Shown here: one piece after another, positions 2,705 to 36,957 of the stretch
Numbering within the stretch: position 1 is the first letter of the stretch
How the letters are laid out: each line of letters starts with the position of its first letter
NCBI RefSeq assembly: GCF_900106805.1
Contig: NZ_FNNP01000001.1
Span: 620,001-684,000, forward strand
Source of the DNA: Ruegeria halocynthiae
GTDB lineage: Bacteria; Pseudomonadota; Alphaproteobacteria; Rhodobacterales; Rhodobacteraceae
Direction of reading: 5' to 3'
DNA: 64,000 nt
Notes under the pieces: generated by a model
Told to the model about the DNA's origin: nothing
The model's input: the letters and a program-made list of their open reading frames with translations, nothing else
Database searches by the model: none
Translations under genes and position numbers: made by a program

Positions 2705-3297
2705 GCCACAAGCGCGTCGCAATCCTGATATCCGGTGGCGGGTCAAACATGCTGTCGCTGGTCGACAGCATGATCGGAGATCACCCGGCGCGGCCGTGTC
2801 TGGTAATGTCGAACGAAGCGCAGGCGGGCGGTCTTAGAAAAGCGGCCGAGCGTGGCATTCCCACCGCAGCCATCGACCATCGGCCGTTTTGCGGCGATCG
2901 CGCCGCGTTTGAGGCTGAATTGCTTAAACCGCTGCTGGCAGCACAACCGGATATCATATGTCTGGCTGGGTTCATGCGCGTTCTGACCGGTGATTTTGTG
3001 TCACGATTCCATGGGCGAATGCTAAACATTCACCCCTCGCTGTTGCCTAAATACAAAGGTCTGAACACCCATGCCCGTGCCATCGAAGCAGGCGATGTCG
3101 AACATGGTTGCACCGTTCACGAAGTCACCGCCGCGCTGGATGACGGCCCGGTTCTGGGACAGGCGCGCGTGGAGGTAAGGGCAGGAGACACGCCCGAAGA
3201 CCTCGCCGCCCGTGTGTTGGTGCAAGAGCACAAACTCTATCCCGCCGTTCTGCGCCAGTTCTCTTTGGGCAACAAAGACCCAGTTCTGTTGCCCTGA
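2701..3297 (+). CDS. purN: Phosphoribosylglycinamide formyltransferase
   Basis: GAR transformylase: transfers a formyl group from 10-formyl-tetrahydrofolate to GAR, the third step of purine synthesis. The 198 residues begin with the nucleotide-binding strand [13 protein letters not shown], and the catalytic region reads [20 protein letters not shown], with the Asn-His pair and, further on, [15 protein letters not shown] containing the catalytic Asp. The start is a GTG inside the purM stop (GTGA overlap), the usual purMN arrangement. Confidence 0.97.
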
Positions 3298-6419: not shown

Positions 6420-7118
6420 TTAGCCGGCCAGTTGGTTGTGCTTGCGCGACATGAAGTCTTTGGCCATCTCAACCGCGACGGCTGCATCACGGCAATAGCC
6501 ATCAGCGCCAATTGCCTTGCCGAACTCTTCGTTCAGTGGGGCTCCGCCAACCAGAACAGTGTATTCTTCGCGCAGGCCTTGTTCGACCAAAGTGTCGATC
6601 ACAACCTTCATGTAGGGCATGGTCGTCGTCAGAAGGGCGGACATGCCCAGAATGTCGGGCTGCTCGTTCTCTAACGCTTCAAGATAGTTTTCAACCGGGT
6701 TGTTGATGCCGATATCAACAACCTCGAACCCGGCGCCCTCCATCATCATGGCGACAAGGTTCTTGCCGATGTCATGGATGTCACCCTTGACGGTGCCGAT
6801 GACCATCTTGCCGACGCGCGGGGCACCGGTCTCGGCCAGCAGCGGCTTGAGGATGGACATGCCGCCTTTCATGGCGTTGGCGGCCAGCAGCACTTCGGGC
6901 ACAAACAAGATGCCATCACGGAAGTCGTGGCCAACGATAGTCATACCACCGACCAGCGCTTTGGTGAGGACGTCGTAGGGTACCCATCCGCGCTCTAGCA
7001 GGATGTTCACAGCTTCCTCGATCTCTTCCTTCAGACCGTCATAGAGGTCATCGAACATCTGTTCGACAAGTTCGTCGTCATTCAGTTCGGACAGGACGAT
7101 GTCTTCTTCATCGGACAT
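6420..7118 (-). CDS. Methyltransferase cognate corrinoid protein
   Basis: Carries a cobalamin cofactor that shuttles a methyl group between a substrate methyltransferase and a second methyltransferase. The 232 residues comprise an N-terminal helical methionine-synthase-cap-like domain (about 20-100: VPEVLLAANAMKGGMSILKPLL) and a B12-binding Rossmann domain starting VGKMVIGTVKGDIHDIGKN, with the DxHxxG motif whose His is the lower axial ligand of cobalt. The later SALLTTTMPYM and VGGAPLNEEF motifs also fit. A possible partner is the MttB-like protein at 34480-36024, about 27 kb away. The ATG at 7118 opens the acidic MSDEED terminus usual for the family. Confidence 0.95.
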   Translation of the reverse strand: MSDEEDIVLSELNDDELVEQMFDDLYDGLKEEIEEAVNILLERGWVPYDVLTKALVGGMTIVGHDFRDGILFVPEVLLAANAMKGGMSILKPLLAETGAPRVGKMVIGTVKGDIHDIGKNLVAMMMEGAGFEVVDIGINNPVENYLEALENEQPDILGMSALLTTTMPYMKVVIDTLVEQGLREEYTVLVGGAPLNEEFGKAIGADGYCRDAAVAVEMAKDFMSRKHNQLAG

Positions 7119-7413
7119 GGGTGTTTCCCTGAGCTGAGTGGGCCTGTGGCCCGGGTGGCATTTTTTCCGTTTTGGCCATTTCGTCGCAGTTATACTGAGA
7201 CGATTGCGACCTTGGTCGTTCCGAGACCGACCTATAGGCCGAATTATCGCACCCAGCGATATCGAATTTTGCAAGATCATCCTGCATTTGTTTCATCAGC
7301 CACGGCAAACTCGTCCTCTGTCAACTGCTTTGCCTGGCTTCGTATTCCGCGATTGTCGTTTGCAGGTCATGGAACTTGCCAGTGAACCGGGATTCGATTA
7401 CATCCAGTTTATG
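7119..7413. other. Intergenic region between divergent corrinoid and radical SAM genes
   Basis: Almost 300 bases with no convincing coding sequence; short frames on both strands look like chance. It must hold the promoters of the two divergent genes. A small inverted repeat ggtcg/cgacc is present near 7213-7231. The only clear regulatory signal is the SOS box at its right end. Confidence 0.5.
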
Positions 7414-7428
7414 GAACAAACTGTGAAC
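7414..7428. promoter_or_regulatory. Putative LexA (SOS) box at the radical SAM gene start
   Basis: GAAC (7414-7417), seven bases, GAAC (7425-7428). This is the exact complement form of the alphaproteobacterial LexA operator GTTC-N7-GTTC and the same spacing as the box in front of lexA in this window. It ends two bases before the ATG of the radical SAM gene, where bound LexA would block transcription or elongation. Unusually close to the start codon, so the true start may lie a few codons downstream. Confidence 0.6.
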
Positions 7429-7430
7429 AA

Positions 7431-8498
7431 ATGGCTGCCAACGTGAAGAATCCGGGGCGTGGTTCAGCCTCGAACGCGGTAGGCCGGTTCGAACGCTTTG
7501 CAACCGAAGCGGCCGATGATGGTTGGGATGGTCCCGACGATTTGCCGCCGCTGCGAACCGAGGTTCGAAATGAGATGGCCCGCAGCCTGATTACCTATAA
7601 CAAATCACCTGATCTGCCCTTTGATCGTTCGATCAACCCGTATCGAGGATGCGAGCATGGGTGTGTCTACTGCTTTGCCCGGCCAACCCATGCCTATCTC
7701 GGCCTGTCACCGGGTTTGGATTTTGAAACACGTCTTATCGCGCGCCCCAATTCTGCCGAGATACTGCGCCGAGAGCTTTCTGCGCGATCATACAAGGTGG
7801 CAACGATTGCTTTGGGCACCAACACCGACCCCTATCAGCCGATTGAGAAAAGTCACGAAATAACAAGGGGCTGCCTGCAAGTTCTCAGGGATTTCCGGCA
7901 CCCTGTCGGTATTGTGACGAAAGGCACGTTGATTGAACGTGATCTTGATATTCTGGCGCCGATGGCTCGGAAGGGCCTTGTGCGGGTCGGGATTTCTCTG
8001 ACCACATTGGATCCGGATCTGTCCCGGCGGATGGAGCCGCGCGCACCGTCGCCGCAGCGCAGGCTGCGCATGATTCGTAATCTAACCGGGGAAGGGGTGC
8101 CCGTGCGCGTCATGACCTCGCCCGTCGTACCAGGTCTGACCGATCATGAGCTTGAGAACCTGCTGGAGGCGGGAAAGCAGGCTGGTGCTGATTCCGCAAG
8201 CTGGATCATGTTACGGCTGCCGCGCGAAGTGTCTGATCTGTGGCGCGAATGGCTGGCCGAGCATCAACCGGGCAGGGCAGAGAAAGTCATGGCGCGGCTG
8301 CGTGAAATGCATGGCGGCAAAGAATATGATCCCCGTTGGGGGCACAGGATGCGCGGCGAAGGCAACTATGCCGAGATGATTGCACAACGGTTCAAGGCCG
8401 CTGTGAAACGTTTGGATTTGGCGGTCAATCTGCCGCCACTGAACTGCGATGCTTTTGCGCCTCCGCCTCAGCCCGGGGATCAGTTGTCGTTGTTTTGA
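7431..8498 (+). CDS. PA0069/Rv2578c-type radical SAM protein with C-terminal clamp-like motif
   Basis: A 355-residue radical SAM enzyme of the PA0069 family, distantly related to spore photoproduct lyase. The 4Fe-4S binding cysteines are in YRGCEHGCVYCFAR (CxxxCxxC, about residues 73-83), after the conserved SLITYNKSPDLPFDRSINPYRG. VATIALGTNTDPYQPIE and the arginine-rich middle are also typical. The last residues, GDQLSLF, resemble the bacterial beta-clamp binding consensus QL(S/D)LF. An SOS box abuts the start, so the protein may act in the DNA damage response; its reaction is unknown. No strong ribosome site is visible; the GTG at 7443 is an alternative start. Confidence 0.92.
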   Translation: MAANVKNPGRGSASNAVGRFERFATEAADDGWDGPDDLPPLRTEVRNEMARSLITYNKSPDLPFDRSINPYRGCEHGCVYCFARPTHAYLGLSPGLDFETRLIARPNSAEILRRELSARSYKVATIALGTNTDPYQPIEKSHEITRGCLQVLRDFRHPVGIVTKGTLIERDLDILAPMARKGLVRVGISLTTLDPDLSRRMEPRAPSPQRRLRMIRNLTGEGVPVRVMTSPVVPGLTDHELENLLEAGKQAGADSASWIMLRLPREVSDLWREWLAEHQPGRAEKVMARLREMHGGKEYDPRWGHRMRGEGNYAEMIAQRFKAAVKRLDLAVNLPPLNCDAFAPPPQPGDQLSLF

Positions 8499-12519: not shown

Positions 12520-14547
12520 ATGCGTGTTCTGACACGGGTCGAGACTGCGCTGCTGACCCAGCGGGGACATTTGTTTCCTTGGTCTCCGGTTGGTCTTGCG
12601 GTCGGAATTGGCTGCTATTTCAGCCTGAGGTTTGAACCCGGGGTCAATCTTTATGACGGGGTTTTGGCTTTTGCGTTGCTGGCAATTGTCATCACCCGCT
12701 GGTTGCGTGTGGCATGGGCACCATTGGCCATAGGTCTAGCCCTGATTGCTGTGGGTTTCCTGTTGGCGGGCGCACGGGCTCACAAGGTTGCAGAGCCGGT
12801 TCTGCAATGGCGCTATTACGGCCCGGTCGAGGGGAGGGTCGTGGCGCTGGACCGCTCTGCGTCGGATGCGCTGCGGGTAACACTGGATCAGGTACGCATC
12901 GGGGACGTTCCTGCTGATCAGAGACCCCGGCGCATCCGGCTGTCCATACACGGAGCAACCGTGAATCTGTCACCGGGGCAGAGAATTATGACCACCGCCC
13001 ATCTGTCACCGCCACAAGGGCCTGTCGAACCCGGAGGCTTTGATTTTCGCCGCCATGCGTGGTTTCAGGAGCTGGGCGCTGTCGGTTACACACGGGTTCC
13101 GGTTCTGAGCGTTGCGCCACCCTGGGCCGGGCGTGACGGAGTACATATCACGGTGTGGCGAATGGCGATCTCGGATCGGGTGCGTGCAATTTTACCCGGC
13201 GAGGTTGGGGGATTTGCCGCTGCCGTCACCACCGGTGATCGCAGTGGGATTGGTCAGACCTCATTGGAGGCATTGCGCGCCTCTAATCTGGCGCACCTTC
13301 TTGCGATCTCGGGTTTGCATATGGGTTTGCTGACGGGCTTCGTATTTATGGCCTGCCGCGTCGGACTGTCGGTGATCCCAGTCTTGGCCCTTCGATTGCC
13401 AGTACGTAAAGTGGCTGCAATCTGTGCACTGGTGGCCGCGACGGTCTATCTTTTCCTGTCCGGCGGCAACGTCGCAACCGAGCGTGCCTTTGTTATGGTT
13501 TGCGTCATGTTTGGCGCTGTGCTTTTGGATCGCCGTGCGATCTCGCTGCGGGCCGTGGCGTTGGCGGCGCTGATCGTGCTGGTGTTACGCCCGGAGACCC
13601 TGCTGAGCCCTGGTTTCCAGATGTCGTTCGCAGCAACGACGGCGTTGGTGGCGGCATTTGGCGGGCTGCGGGGTTACGGTCCGATGCCCGGCCCGAAATG
13701 GTTGCGACCTGTGTTGGCTCTGCTGATGTCCTCGGCTATCGCCGGGGTCGCGACGGCGCCGATCGGAGCGGCACATTTTAATACCATGTCACACTACGGA
13801 TTGCTGGCGAATCTGGTTTCTGTGCCAGTCATGGGTACGGTGGTGGTTCCGGCCGCGGTCGTCGCCGCACTTTTGGCGCCATTCGGGCTTGAAGCACTGG
13901 CGCTGCAGGTGATGGGCGCCGGTCTACGCTGGATACTGGCCGTCGCGCGTTGGGTTTCGGACCTGGATGGTGCGCGCGGTTATGTAGTGAGCCCAGCGGA
14001 TTTTGTTCTGCCTGTGCTGGCGATGTCTTTTCTTTGGTTGATGCTGTGGCAAGGGCGCGCAAGGTGGTTTGGGGTTGCGCCCGCAGTCATGGCAATTGCG
14101 ATGTGGGGGCCGGGGCATCGCCCGGACGTGCTAATTGCTGAAACCGGGGGGCTAGTTGGCGTAATGACCGAACAAGGGCGGGCTCTCAGCAAGCACAAGG
14201 GAAGTGGTTTCGTTGCATCGGTCTGGCTGGAGAATGACGGTGATGGTGCGGATCAACCAAAGGCGGCGCAGCGATGGCCGGATGCATCGGGCGGTGTTCA
14301 ACGCTACCTGATCGGCGGCAAAGAGCTTGTTCACCTGACCGGAAAGCGGGTCGCGCAGACCTTTGAGGAATGCAGGCCGGATCAGATCATTGTCGCATCC
14401 GTATCGCTGACCCTGAACGGAGAGTGCAGCGTGTACGATCCCGACACATTGCAGAAAACGGGCAGTCTGGCCTTGTCCAAAGGACGTATGTTCACCAGCT
14501 CCGAAGCCACGGGTCGCCGCCTATGGTCGCCGCACACGCGTCAGTAG
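12520..14547 (+). CDS. comEC: ComEC/Rec2 family DNA channel protein
   Basis: Inner-membrane channel protein that in competent bacteria passes single-stranded DNA into the cytoplasm. The 675 residues contain an N-terminal OB-like DUF4131 part (about 100-210: [24 protein letters not shown]), then the ComEC core with [17 protein letters not shown] (about residue 265-281), [24 protein letters not shown], and many membrane helices. The C-terminal region (from about 550, [13 protein letters not shown]) corresponds to the metallo-beta-lactamase-like domain but lacks an HxHxDH metal motif. ATG 12520 follows GAAGGACGGGGG; the longer frame starts at a TTG. Its stop overlaps that of lexA. Confidence 0.93.
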
Positions 14548-15239
14548 CTTCGGATCAGACCGACCAAGCGACCTTGTACCTTTACCTTGTCCTCGGGCAG
14601 CACACGGGTTTCATAGGCCGGATTTGCAGCTTCAAGTGCAATAGCCTGACCCCGGCGGAAGAACCGTTTCAGCGTGGCTTCCTGATCTTCGACCAATGCA
14701 ACCACGATATCGCCGTTATCGGCCGCTGTGGTCTCGCGGATTACTACTACATCCCCATCATTGATCCCGGCTTCGATCATCGAGTCGCCACGCACCTCAA
14801 GCGCATAATGTTCACCACTGCCCGATACCATCGACCCCGGTACGGCGACGTGGTGCGAGACATGGCTGATGGCTTCGATCGGCACACCGGCAGCGATCCG
14901 CCCCATGACCGGCAACTCCAAAGCGTCAACTCTTACAGGCTCGAAATTGGCCGGGCGTGGACCTTCCGGGCGATTCCCCTCGATCACGCGCGGTTTGAAG
15001 CCTGCGGTCGGTTCACCACCAAGGCTTTCGGGTAGCTTGACGATTTCGATAGCGCGGGCACGGTGGGCAAGGCGGCGGATAAAGCCACGCTCCTCCAATG
15101 CGGTGATCAGGCGATGAATTCCTGATTTCGATCGAAGGTCCAGAGCGGCCTTCATCTCGTCAAAACTGGGTGGAACACCGACCGCTTGAACGCGTTTGTG
15201 GATGAATTCCAGCAAATCCAATTGCTTCTTGGTCAGCAT
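14541..15239 (-). CDS. lexA: LexA repressor
   Basis: Represses the SOS regulon and self-cleaves on contact with RecA filaments. The 232 residues have the winged-helix DNA-binding domain ([51 protein letters not shown]) and the S24 peptidase domain with the Ala-Gly cleavage site in [12 protein letters not shown], the nucleophile Ser in [10 protein letters not shown] and the catalytic Lys in ATLKRFF. The ATG at 15239 gives the standard MLTKKQ start. An SOS box lies 34 bases upstream, so it is autoregulated. The gene overlaps the end of comEC by 7 bases on the opposite strand. Confidence 0.98.
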
Positions 15240-15272
15240 CGCTCGCACCTCATCGCTTATGCGTTTTCTTTT

Positions 15273-15287
15273 GTTCTACGCATGTTC
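15273..15287. promoter_or_regulatory. LexA (SOS) box upstream of lexA
   Basis: GTTC (15273-15276), TACGCAT, GTTC (15284-15287). This fits the alphaproteobacterial LexA operator GTTC-N7-GTTC exactly and lies in the 67-base gap between moeA and lexA, 34-48 bases before the lexA start codon, where autoregulation is expected. Confidence 0.88.
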
Positions 15288-30020: not shown

Positions 30021-33000
30021 ATGAAGATTGAAAGAAAATTCACCAAACCGGGACAGGATGCATATGACGATCTGGACTTTGTGTCTGCGACGTCTGAAAT
30101 CCGTAATCCCGATGGGACCATCGTATTCCGCCTGGACGAGATTGAGGTTCCCGCAAAGTGGAGCCAGGTTGCCAGCGATGTCATCGCACAGAAGTATTTC
30201 CGCAAAGCTGGCGTCCCGTCCAAGCTGAAGAAAGTCAAAGAGAAAGACGTTCCTGAGTTCCTGTGGCGTTCAGTTCCTGCGGAAGATGCAGAATTTGATG
30301 GCGAGGCGTCTTCCAAGCAGGTGTTTGACCGTTTGGCTGGTGCCTGGGCTTATTGGGGCTGGAAGGGCGGATACTTCTCGACCGAGGAAGATGCGCGCGC
30401 CTATTTTGACGAGATGCGCTATATGCTGGCGACCCAGCGCGCGGCTCCGAACTCGCCGCAATGGTTTAACACTGGCCTGCACTGGGCCTATGGAATCGAC
30501 GGTCCTGCACAGGGGCACCACTATGTAGATTACAAAACCGGCAAGCTGACCAAATCGAAATCCGCCTACGAACATCCGCAGCCGCACGCGTGCTTCATTC
30601 AGTCGGTCGATGATGATCTGGTGAACGAAGGCGGCATTATGGACCTGTGGGTGCGTGAGGCGCGCCTGTTCAAATACGGCTCGGGCACCGGCACCAATTT
30701 CAGCCATTTGCGTGCAGAGGGCGAAGCGCTTTCGGGTGGCGGCAAATCCTCGGGCCTGATGGGCTTTCTCAAGATCGGCGACCGCGCCGCTGGCGCGATC
30801 AAATCAGGCGGCACAACCCGTCGAGCAGCAAAGATGGTAATCGTCGATGCTGATCACCCTGACATCGAGAAATTCATCGAATGGAAGGTGATCGAAGAGC
30901 AGAAGGTGGCCTCGATCGTTGCCGGATCGAAGATGCACGAAAAGATGCTGAACGGCATTTTCGAGGCCATCCGCACATGGGACGGAACGCAGGACGACGC
31001 GTATGACCCCATGAAGAATGACGCCCTTAAAGCCGCCGTTCGCGAGGCGAAAAAGGTTGCGATCCCAGAAACTTACATCAAGCGCGTTCTGGATTATGCC
31101 AAACAGGGCCATGACAGCATCGAATTCCCGACCTACGACACAGATTGGGATTCGGAAGCCTACAGCTCGGTTTCGGGCCAGAATTCAAACAACTCGATCC
31201 GTGTGACGAATGCGTTCCTGACGGCTGTTGAAAAAGACGCCGATTGGGAGTTGATCAATCGTAAGGATGGCAAGGTTGCCCGGACCGTAAAGGCGCGGGA
31301 TCTGTGGGAAAAGGTCGGCCACGCGGCATGGGCCTGTGCCGATCCGGGGATCCAGTTCCACGACACTGTCAACGAATGGCACACGTGCCCCAAAGACGGT
31401 GAGATTCGCGGCTCGAACCCGTGCTCGGAATATATGTTCCTTGATGATACGGCCTGTAATCTGGCGTCGATGAATCTGCTGACATTCCTGAAGGATGATG
31501 AATTCCAGGCGGCGGACTATATGCACGCCTCGCGCCTGTGGACTCTGACACTGGAAATTTCAGTGACGATGGCGCAGTTCCCGTCGAAGGAAATCGCGCA
31601 ACTGTCCTATGACTTCCGCACCTTGGGTCTGGGCTATGCCAATATCGGCGGTCTGCTGATGAACATGGGCTACAGCTACGACTCGGACGAGGGCCGGGCG
31701 ATCTGTGGCGCACTGACTGCGATCATGACAGGCGTGGCCTATGCGACCTCGGCTGAGATCGCTGGCGAACTTGGCCCATTCAAAGGCTATGAGCGCAATG
31801 CAGACCATATGCTGCGGGTCATCCGGAACCACCGCCGTGCGTCGCAGGGCGTGACCGACGGATACGAGAAGCTGGCCGTAAAGCCCGTGCCTCTGGATCA
31901 CGGCAACTGCCCGGACAAGCGTTTGGTTGATCTGGCTATGTCGGCCTGGGATGAGGCGCTGAGTCTTGGCGAAAAGAATGGCTACCGCAACGCGCAGGCC
32001 ACAGTGATCGCCCCGACCGGCACCATCGGTCTGGTGATGGATTGCGATACCACCGGGATCGAGCCTGATTTTGCATTGGTGAAGTTCAAAAAGCTGGCCG
32101 GCGGTGGCTACTTCAAGATCATCAACCGCTCGGTTCCTGCGGCGTTGGAAAAGCAGGGCTATTCCTCGTCTCAGATTGAAGAGATCGTTGGATATGCGGT
32201 TGGTCACGGCACCATCGGCAACGCGCCGGGCATCAACCATACTTCGCTGACGGGCCATGGTTTTGGTCCGAACGAGCTGGCCAAAGTGGATGCTGCATTG
32301 GAAAGCGCCTTCGACATCCGGTTCGTCTTCAACCAGTGGACGCTGGGCGAAGAGTTCTGCACCGGCGTTCTAGGCATCCCGGCGACCAAATTGAGCGACC
32401 CGACGTTCGACCTGCTGCGCCATCTTGGCTTTACCAAAGCGGATATTGACGCGGCCAACGATCACGTTTGTGGAACCATGACGCTGGAAGGGGCGCCGCA
32501 TCTGAAAGAAGAGCACTATTCGATCTTCGATTGCGCCAACCCGTGCGGCAAAAAGGGCAAGCGTTTCCTTGAGGTCAATAGCCACATTACCATGATGGCA
32601 GCGGCGCAAAGCTTCATCTCTGGCGCGATCTCGAAAACGATCAATATGCCGAATGATGCAACCATCGAGGATTGCCAGAAGGCATACGAACTGTCGTGGT
32701 CGCTGGGTGTGAAGGCCAACGCCCTGTATCGTGATGGCTCGAAACTGTCGCAGCCACTGGCGGCGGCACTGGTTGAAGATGACGACGAAGCGGCGGAAGT
32801 GCTGGAAAGCGGATCGCCTCAGGAAAAAGCCCTCGTTCTCGCCGAGAAGGTGATCGAAAAGGTTGTGGTCAAAGAAATCATCCGCAGCCACCGCGAGAAA
32901 CTGCCGCATCGCCGCAAGGGATATACCCAAAAGGCAATCGTCGGGGGCCACAAGGTCTATCTGCGCACAGGTGAATTCGAAGACGGCCAATTGGGTGAGA

Positions 33001-33638
33001 TCTTCATCGACATGCACAAGGAAGGCGCTGGCTTCCGGGCGATGATGAACAACTTTGCCATCGCGGTGTCTGTTGGCCTGCAATATGGTGTGCCGCTGGA
33101 AGAATTCGTGGATGCCTTCACCTTCACCAAGTTCGAACCGGCTGGGATGGTGCAGGGCAACGACTCGATCAAGAATGCGACGTCGATCCTGGATTACATC
33201 TTCCGCGAGTTGGCCGTGTCCTACCTTGATCGCACCGATCTGGCCCATGTGAAACCCGAAGGCGCAAGCTTTGACGATTTGGGGCGTGGTGAAGAGGACG
33301 GTCTGTCAAACGTCTCGGAGATCAGTGACAGTGCCGCAACCAAGTCTTTGGAAGTGCTGAAACAAATCAGCTCGACTGGCTATCTTCGTAAGCGTTTGCC
33401 TCAGGATCTGATGGTGTTCAATGGGGGTCAGTCTGACACGACCGGAATGGCAGAAACCGCGGCGCCGTTCGAAGCGCCCGCCGAAACTGCAGTGGCAACC
33501 GGAATGGACGCCCGCATCAAAGCGAAGATGCAAGGTTATGAAGGTGACCCCTGCGGAGAATGCGGAAACTACACGCTGGTGCGCAATGGCACCTGCATGA
33601 AATGCAACACCTGCGGTTCCACAAGCGGGTGTAGCTGA
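30021..33638 (+). CDS. nrdJ: B12-dependent (class II) ribonucleotide reductase
   Basis: Reduces ribonucleotides to deoxyribonucleotides using adenosylcobalamin to start the radical, so it works with or without oxygen. The 1205 residues match the long alphaproteobacterial form. Recognisable parts: [88 protein letters not shown] (active-site Cys region), [30 protein letters not shown] and the C-terminal [28 protein letters not shown] with paired CxxC motifs. A ggggcagcgg ribosome site precedes the ATG. A structured leader and a structured 3' region flank it. Confidence 0.98.
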
Positions 33639-36366: not shown

Positions 36367-36438
36367 TCGGGGCTTGCTGACCAATGATCACGGCCCCTCA
36401 GATGTGCCCAAACCGGCATCGATTGTTTGGAGGTCTGC

Positions 36439-36957
36439 ATGAAGTCAATTACGACCGTTCTCGTCGCTGCACTAGTAACAAGTGCCGGGTCGGTCGTGGC
36501 GGAAGACTGGACTGGACCATATGCCGGTTTCAGTTTTGGCTATGCAGATACCGATGGATCCGGCGGGGTAGGCGGCAGCAGCGCCAGCTTTGGCCCTTTG
36601 ATTGGGTATGATCATGATTTCGGTAGTTTCGTGTTGGGTGGCGAACTGGAGTATAACCGCCTGAACCTTGATCTGGGCCAGTCAGAAGGTAGCCTTGACA
36701 GCCTTTCACGTCTCAAGCTTCGGGGAGGCTACGATTTTGGCTCGGCCCTTGGTTATATTGTGTTGGGGACCGCACGGGCCAGTACATCTGGCGACAGCGA
36801 TACGGCCGCCGTTTATGGGATCGGTGTTGCCTATCCAATTGGCGATCGGTTTGTCATCAGTGGCGAGGCTTTGCGGCAGGACTTCGACAATGTTCCACAG
36901 TCCGGCGGAAGCCTCGACACAAGTGTTTTCAACCTGCGCACGACATTTCGTTTCTGA
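36439..36957 (+). CDS. Small outer-membrane beta-barrel protein
   Basis: 172 residues: a signal peptide (MKSITTVLVAALVTSAGSVVA), then alternating strands with WTGPYAGFSFGYADTDG, FVLGGELEYNRLNLDLG, SRLKLRGGYDFG, YPIGDRFVISGEALRQDF, and a C-terminal Phe (FNLRTTFRF). This is the OmpA-like eight-stranded porin fold seen in many Rhizobiales and Rhodobacterales surface proteins. Start ATG 36439 follows GGAGG; an in-frame ATG at 36427 is less likely. Confidence 0.82.
   Translation: MKSITTVLVAALVTSAGSVVAEDWTGPYAGFSFGYADTDGSGGVGGSSASFGPLIGYDHDFGSFVLGGELEYNRLNLDLGQSEGSLDSLSRLKLRGGYDFGSALGYIVLGTARASTSGDSDTAAVYGIGVAYPIGDRFVISGEALRQDFDNVPQSGGSLDTSVFNLRTTFRF

Follow-up and report, generated by a model that had tools for sequence, protein, structure and literature searches.

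A PA0069-family radical SAM protein with a conserved LexA-type box and a beta-clamp-type C-terminus, probably an SOS-induced enzyme acting on DNA

Main

The window analyzed here is a 64,000-nt stretch of the Ruegeria halocynthiae genome, and one of its genes probably codes for a radical SAM enzyme that is induced in the SOS response and is tethered to the beta sliding clamp as it acts on DNA. A LexA-type box stands directly before the gene and is kept upstream of its homologues in a form that changes with the lineage, and the protein ends in a peptide of the type that binds the clamp. The features on which this reading is built, together with the box at lexA, are as follows.

7414–7428, forward strand: predicted LexA box of the alphaproteobacterial type (GAAC-N7-GAAC), read from the sequence; an exact box lies upstream in 68/80 and 29/30 homologues
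7431–8498, forward strand: PA0069-family radical SAM gene, 355 amino acids (NF033668, 510.5 bits against a cut-off of 360; PF04055)
7650–7673, forward strand: radical SAM cluster motif C74-x3-C78-x2-C81 (CEHGCVYC), cysteines invariant in 63/63 aligned sequences
7815–7832, forward strand: GTNTDP loop, with Thr130 aligned at the place of the hydrogen-donor cysteine of spore photoproduct lyase (SPL); Thr in 56/63, Cys in 0/63
8481–8495, forward strand: C-terminal QLSLF, predicted beta-clamp-binding motif, present in the last 10 residues of 80/85 non-redundant homologues
15273–15287, reverse strand: predicted LexA box at lexA, with the same form and the same orientation relative to its gene as the box at the radical SAM gene

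Results

Family of the window protein

The window protein is a member of the PA0069 family (NF033668, PA0069 family radical SAM protein, a hypothetical equivalog) and does not differ from it: the match is full length, spanning positions 2–348 of 348. A Pfam search at E 0.001 returned only PF04055, the general radical SAM domain (E 6.9e-23). We know of no reaction for this family; of the 299 phylum genomes sampled, 144 contain a match above the cut-off. PA0069 itself presumably belongs to the LexA regulon of Pseudomonas aeruginosa, and Rv2578c to that of Mycobacterium tuberculosis; a literature search on either protein with LexA found nothing, most subscription papers being beyond its reach. 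In a 63-row alignment of the window protein and 62 of 80 homologues (18 were omitted as near repeats or as cut or odd-ended sequences), many polar residues are invariant along with the three cluster cysteines.

The Rv2578c family (NF038135) is a related group. Residues 50–302 of the window protein match its profile at 247 bits, below its cut-off of 430, and its Tsukamurella member lacks, by inspection, the N-terminal GRGA...DDGW region. A profile search of solved structures with E up to 1 gave seven weak partial matches, the best being SkfB (E 0.007) and NifB (E 0.011), with no SPL among them. Relatives also occur on viral contigs, which were considered with a phage origin in view: three of ten loci showed 49–52% identity (one of them spanning residues 6–109 only) and seven gave weak or short matches. 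On haloarchaeal and Nostoc plasmids (four loci), distant radical SAM relatives are paired or lie beside TcmP (three-Cys-motif partner); these constitute a different system.

The LexA box in the window and in the genome

The box, GAACAAACTGTGAAC, occupies 7414–7428 on the forward strand as GAAC-N7-GAAC and is followed by AA and then by the ATG at 7431. The first-pass annotation had placed such a site two bases 5' of the start codon and likened it to the box at lexA, and both readings were borne out, the second also for gene-relative orientation (lexA occupies 14541–15248 on the reverse strand). By itself the motif is not rare and is weak evidence: the window contains four GAAC-N7-GAAC sites versus 2.03 expected, and at least four were found in 18 of 100 shuffles. 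One of the other two sites (3247–3261) lies within a formyltransferase (purN-like) gene. The last (30257–30271, reverse strand) falls within the start of a class II ribonucleotide reductase gene (30021–33638) and is probably a chance occurrence.

Across the whole genome, GAAC-N7-GAAC was counted 87 + 87 times versus 46 + 58 for the reversed pattern, and a stricter pattern, GAACAWWNNNNGAAC, matched 11 sites versus 4 for the control. Strict-pattern sites precede the window radical SAM gene, uvrA, an ImuB-like gene, an ImuA-like gene and an MmcB-like DNA repair gene. The available fragment of the uvrA product matches the UvrA model below the whole-protein cut-off, and the ImuA-like gene scored below the NCBIfam cut-off; the ImuB-like (Y-family polymerase-like) and MmcB-like genes scored above their Pfam cut-offs. 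The ImuB-like and ImuA-like genes lie on separate contigs, each with a box of its own (C11:79593 and C17:978496). The remaining six of the 11 strict sites are in or near genes, that for release factor 3 among them, with no recognised tie to the SOS response; chance thus accounts for part of the strict sites. A promoter scan upstream of the window gene found no sigma-70-like site.

Conservation and exchange of the box among homologues

What raises the box at 7414–7428 above chance is its conservation upstream of homologues, which were assembled in three sets. The first comprised the best 80 of 585 relatives found, with titles nearly all alphaproteobacterial (the exceptions being one labelled Lysobacteraceae and one Enemella); the second, the 30 best-scoring loci from the sample of 299 phylum genomes, all of the window's class; and the third, 40 of the 49 phylum genomes of other classes over the NF033668 cut-off, from which nine, mostly repeats of genera already included, were omitted. 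The stretch searched for boxes began 260 nt before the match start and ended 20 nt past it, and a 280-nt stretch inside each gene served as control.

An exact alphaproteobacterial box (GTTC-N7-GTTC or GAAC-N7-GAAC) was present upstream in 68 of 80 and 29 of 30 loci (97/110), compared to none of the 110 intragenic controls; dinucleotide-shuffled upstream stretches gave means of 0.68 per 80 (maximum 4) and 0.26 per 30 (maximum 2). The two sets are not fully independent, since three locus pairs have identical ends and two of these pairs span both sets. With one mismatch allowed, the box was found in 105/110 loci versus 19/110 control stretches. In the classes outside the Alphaproteobacteria, the gamma-type box CTGT-N8-ACAG takes its place, occurring upstream in 26 of 40 homologues (shuffles, 0.18). 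No gamma-type box was found in the 110 loci of the first two sets and no alpha-type box in the 40 of the third. An exact box of their own class was not found in 13/110 and 14/40 homologues, respectively; among these 14, one has TTAG-N6-TACTA, which we take to be the Xanthomonas LexA type, one has a gamma-type box with one mismatch and the other 12 have neither. That the box type switches with the LexA of the lineage is hard to account for unless LexA acts on the gene.

Other box forms were seen at more distant relatives. A plasmid-borne relative in Aeromonas carries CTGT-N8-ACAG. Four plasmid-borne actinobacterial loci, related to the Rv2578c family, were inspected, and GAAC-N4-GTTC stands before the start in two of the four (Streptomyces and Nonomuraea), with imperfect forms in Tsukamurella and Arthrobacter. 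None of the searched forms was seen by eye at the Legionella, Gemmatirosa, Runella and Nostoc loci, and none was found at the clostridial, Bacilli or archaeal loci.

SOS control of the window gene, as proposed in the first pass with a search of homologue promoters as one check, is therefore well supported at the sequence level. The absence of a box from homologues that would have spoken against it was not what the comparison showed: a LexA-type site at the promoter is kept in orthologues and is swapped for the corresponding box elsewhere. We consider such control very likely.

This control is not a new prediction. A 2012 study (PMC3323433) predicted it for alpha- and beta-Proteobacteria for a gene named 'splB', termed a photolyase, whose product is described there as an SPL homologue with reference to 'photoreactivation'; the gel-shift passages of that paper concern Vibrio parahaemolyticus, and its splB passages make no mention of the C-terminus. 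Two species of that study, Sinorhizobium meliloti and Paracoccus denitrificans, have a homologue with both box and tail (the former annotated as PA0069 family), and the 'splB' predicted there is therefore very probably of the PA0069 family. In passages of other papers, a radical SAM protein is named for both the Gram-positive core and Balneolaeota (PMC7739468), SplB (COG1533) is listed in Bacteroidetes (PMC8565304), a radical SAM gene of unspecified family is tabulated for the Streptomyces venezuelae LexA regulon of DNA damage (PMC9380542) and SplB-like proteins are reported in operons with ImuB-C (PMC3765255).

A clamp-type peptide at the C-terminus

The window protein ends in PGDQLSLF, and QL[SD]LF is the consensus of beta-clamp-binding peptides. 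Across the three sets (150 loci), Qxx[LMI][FLW] was found within the last 22 residues in 75/80, 30/30 and 38/40 proteins. The seven misses include one cut contig and five close variants (QLSLI, QLEFF, QLSFF, QMSLI and QMGLDF). Clustering of the 149 complete proteins at 75% identity gave 85 representatives, 80 of which carry Qxx[LMI][FLWI] in the last 10 residues, compared to a mean of 1.53 and a maximum of 7 in 500 rounds of shuffled tails, for a motif defined only after the C-termini had been inspected. Ten windows farther from the C-terminus contained the motif in 0 or 1 representative each. At Q, L and F of the tail, information content is high partly because the search pattern imposes it; the linker positions are mostly much less conserved than the motif, except for F at −9 and P at −6. 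Within the window, 2 of 218 mechanically called open reading frames of at least 60 amino acids have the motif in their last 10 residues, namely the radical SAM protein and a 76-amino-acid frame at 36381–36611.

Among more distant relatives, the actinobacterial proteins end in QESLF, QLTLL, QLRLL and QEPLF, all four of which fit the motif. The three clostridial ones end in EQLGF, EQLSFF and QQSLFD, with a strict fit for QQSLFD alone, and the Gemmatirosa relative ends in QLSLGI. The motif was not found in the SPL and two SPL-like proteins compared, nor in the Priestia, two Paenibacillus, three haloarchaeal, Runella and Nostoc relatives or protein B of the mobile pair. Archaea do not have the bacterial clamp, and the haloarchaeal absence fits with this.

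The clamp-like C-terminus remarked on in the first pass is thus a real, family-wide feature, with the conserved QL[SD]LF-like peptide that a beta-clamp client would have. Judged from this peptide, the radical SAM protein likely docks on the beta clamp. Such docking is new as far as our literature search reached: in the papers within its reach, which left out most subscription papers, no radical SAM enzyme tied to the beta or sliding clamp was found, nor any report of the conserved tail of the PA0069 family. A clamp motif is not, however, proof that DNA is the substrate.

Discussion

Proposed mechanism

We propose that LexA bound at 7414–7428, near the transcription start, would repress the gene, and that DNA damage would switch it on through RecA-driven self-cleavage of LexA. 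Docking of the last five residues (QLSLF) on the beta clamp would then deliver the enzyme to lesion-containing replication forks or gaps, where the 4Fe-4S cluster would cleave SAM and the resulting 5'-deoxyadenosyl radical would abstract hydrogen from a damaged nucleotide or a cross-link. The DNA-damage role suggested in the first pass is well supported in that a conserved LexA-type box and a family-wide clamp-type tail both point to it, and DNA is the probable substrate. As is generally known, the clamp-bound SOS proteins Pol IV and Pol V share LexA control and recruitment through a short clamp-binding peptide; they are polymerases, whereas the window protein is a radical SAM enzyme. More tentatively, the family may constitute a pathway not described before, in at least Pseudomonadota and Actinomycetota, in which a clamp-recruited, SOS-induced radical SAM repair enzyme other than SPL acts on a lesion or cross-link encountered by replication forks, by reversing or trimming it.

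Passages of SOS papers file such genes as SplB or photolyase (PMC3323433, PMC8565304 and PMC3765255). Should the protein instead prove to be a radical enzyme that binds the clamp, these papers would have misread a component of the DNA-damage response that is widespread in bacteria. Removal of the five tail residues would provide a clean separation-of-function mutant.

Alternative functions

The name splB implies a true SPL, or a UV dithymine lyase, under SOS control, and the first-pass annotation likewise drew on kinship to SPL. That kinship held up as a remote and weak profile likeness (107 columns, 42% probability) within a common superfamily: the two share the radical SAM cluster, weakly the barrel and a Tyr beside the cluster. 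It did not extend to SPL identity, as PF20903, the SPL family to which SplB of Bacillus belongs, is unmatched in the window protein at E 0.001 and the catalytic cysteine is missing. When the window protein is aligned by sequence with an SPL of the same bacterial class (272 bits to PF20903), the SPL C-Y-T-D-P falls over T130-N-T-D-P, with TDP common to both. In B. subtilis SPL numbering (taken from passages of PMC5368176), the column of the hydrogen-donor cysteine C141 holds Thr, Ser, Val, Ile, Gly or Ala in all 63 rows and the place of the relay tyrosine Y99 is taken by Phe in 60/63, although Tyr80, present in 63/63, does hold the place of Y97. One clostridial SPL has its cysteine at another place (PMC5368176), yet in the 63-row alignment cysteine reaches at most 37% in any column apart from those of the cluster. 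PF20903 was detected in 2 of 150 sampled phylum genomes, and the one SPL locus compared has none of the searched boxes and no clamp motif, in contrast to the window family. The window protein fails these sequence tests for SPL, from which its chemistry should differ, and we regard an SPL function as improbable despite the published descriptions of an SPL homologue and of 'photoreactivation' (PMC3323433).

The substrate of an SOS-induced enzyme might instead be RNA, tRNA, a clamp-bound protein or the clamp itself. RNA or peptides are well-known substrates of numerous radical SAM enzymes, and the window protein is weakly similar to MoaA; the familiar clamp-bound SOS proteins, however, act on DNA, and an RNase HII gene lies downstream in 40/107 loci. 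Passages of published work also place SplB-like genes, perhaps not all of the PA0069 family, with polymerase and glycosylase genes (PMC8565304 and PMC3765255). We consider a substrate other than DNA unlikely, if somewhat less so than an SPL function. It is also conceivable that the box is incidental and that the gene is paired with the divergent gene for a B12-binding (corrinoid) protein at 6420–7280. This gene adjoins the radical SAM gene in the window, and a divergent gene for such a protein stands beside it in 35 of the 80 first-set loci, but those 35 are nearly all titled Rhodobacteraceae or its genera. A functional pairing was set aside as barely credible because neighbors differ outside that family while the box and tail persist. 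Our preferred reading therefore remains a clamp-tethered enzyme acting on DNA.

Downstream gene and placement of the box

The RNase HII count was obtained by a motif search within 500 nt downstream on the same strand in the 107 alphaproteobacterial loci of the first two sets with sufficient sequence, and two of the 40 cases were confirmed by profile. As RNase HII follows on the same strand, one box perhaps controls both genes.

The box of the window gene leaves scant space for a ribosome-binding site, and the messenger may accordingly be leaderless or nearly so. The GAAC orientation is found at all five Ruegeria loci, four of which have an in-frame ATG starting 2–4 nt after the box, as in the window. 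At 30 loci with the GTTC orientation, mostly Rhodobacteraceae by title, an in-frame ATG lies 11–14 nt past the box in 27, a constant gap suggesting that the messenger is leaderless and that the box overlaps the −10 region. Ruegeria marisrubri has both a GTTC-type and a GAAC-type box, 30 bp apart, upstream of position 3001 of its locus; the other four Ruegeria loci have the GAAC type only, the GTTC type is found at most of the loci from other Rhodobacteraceae, and the double box possibly records the replacement of one LexA site by another with inversion.
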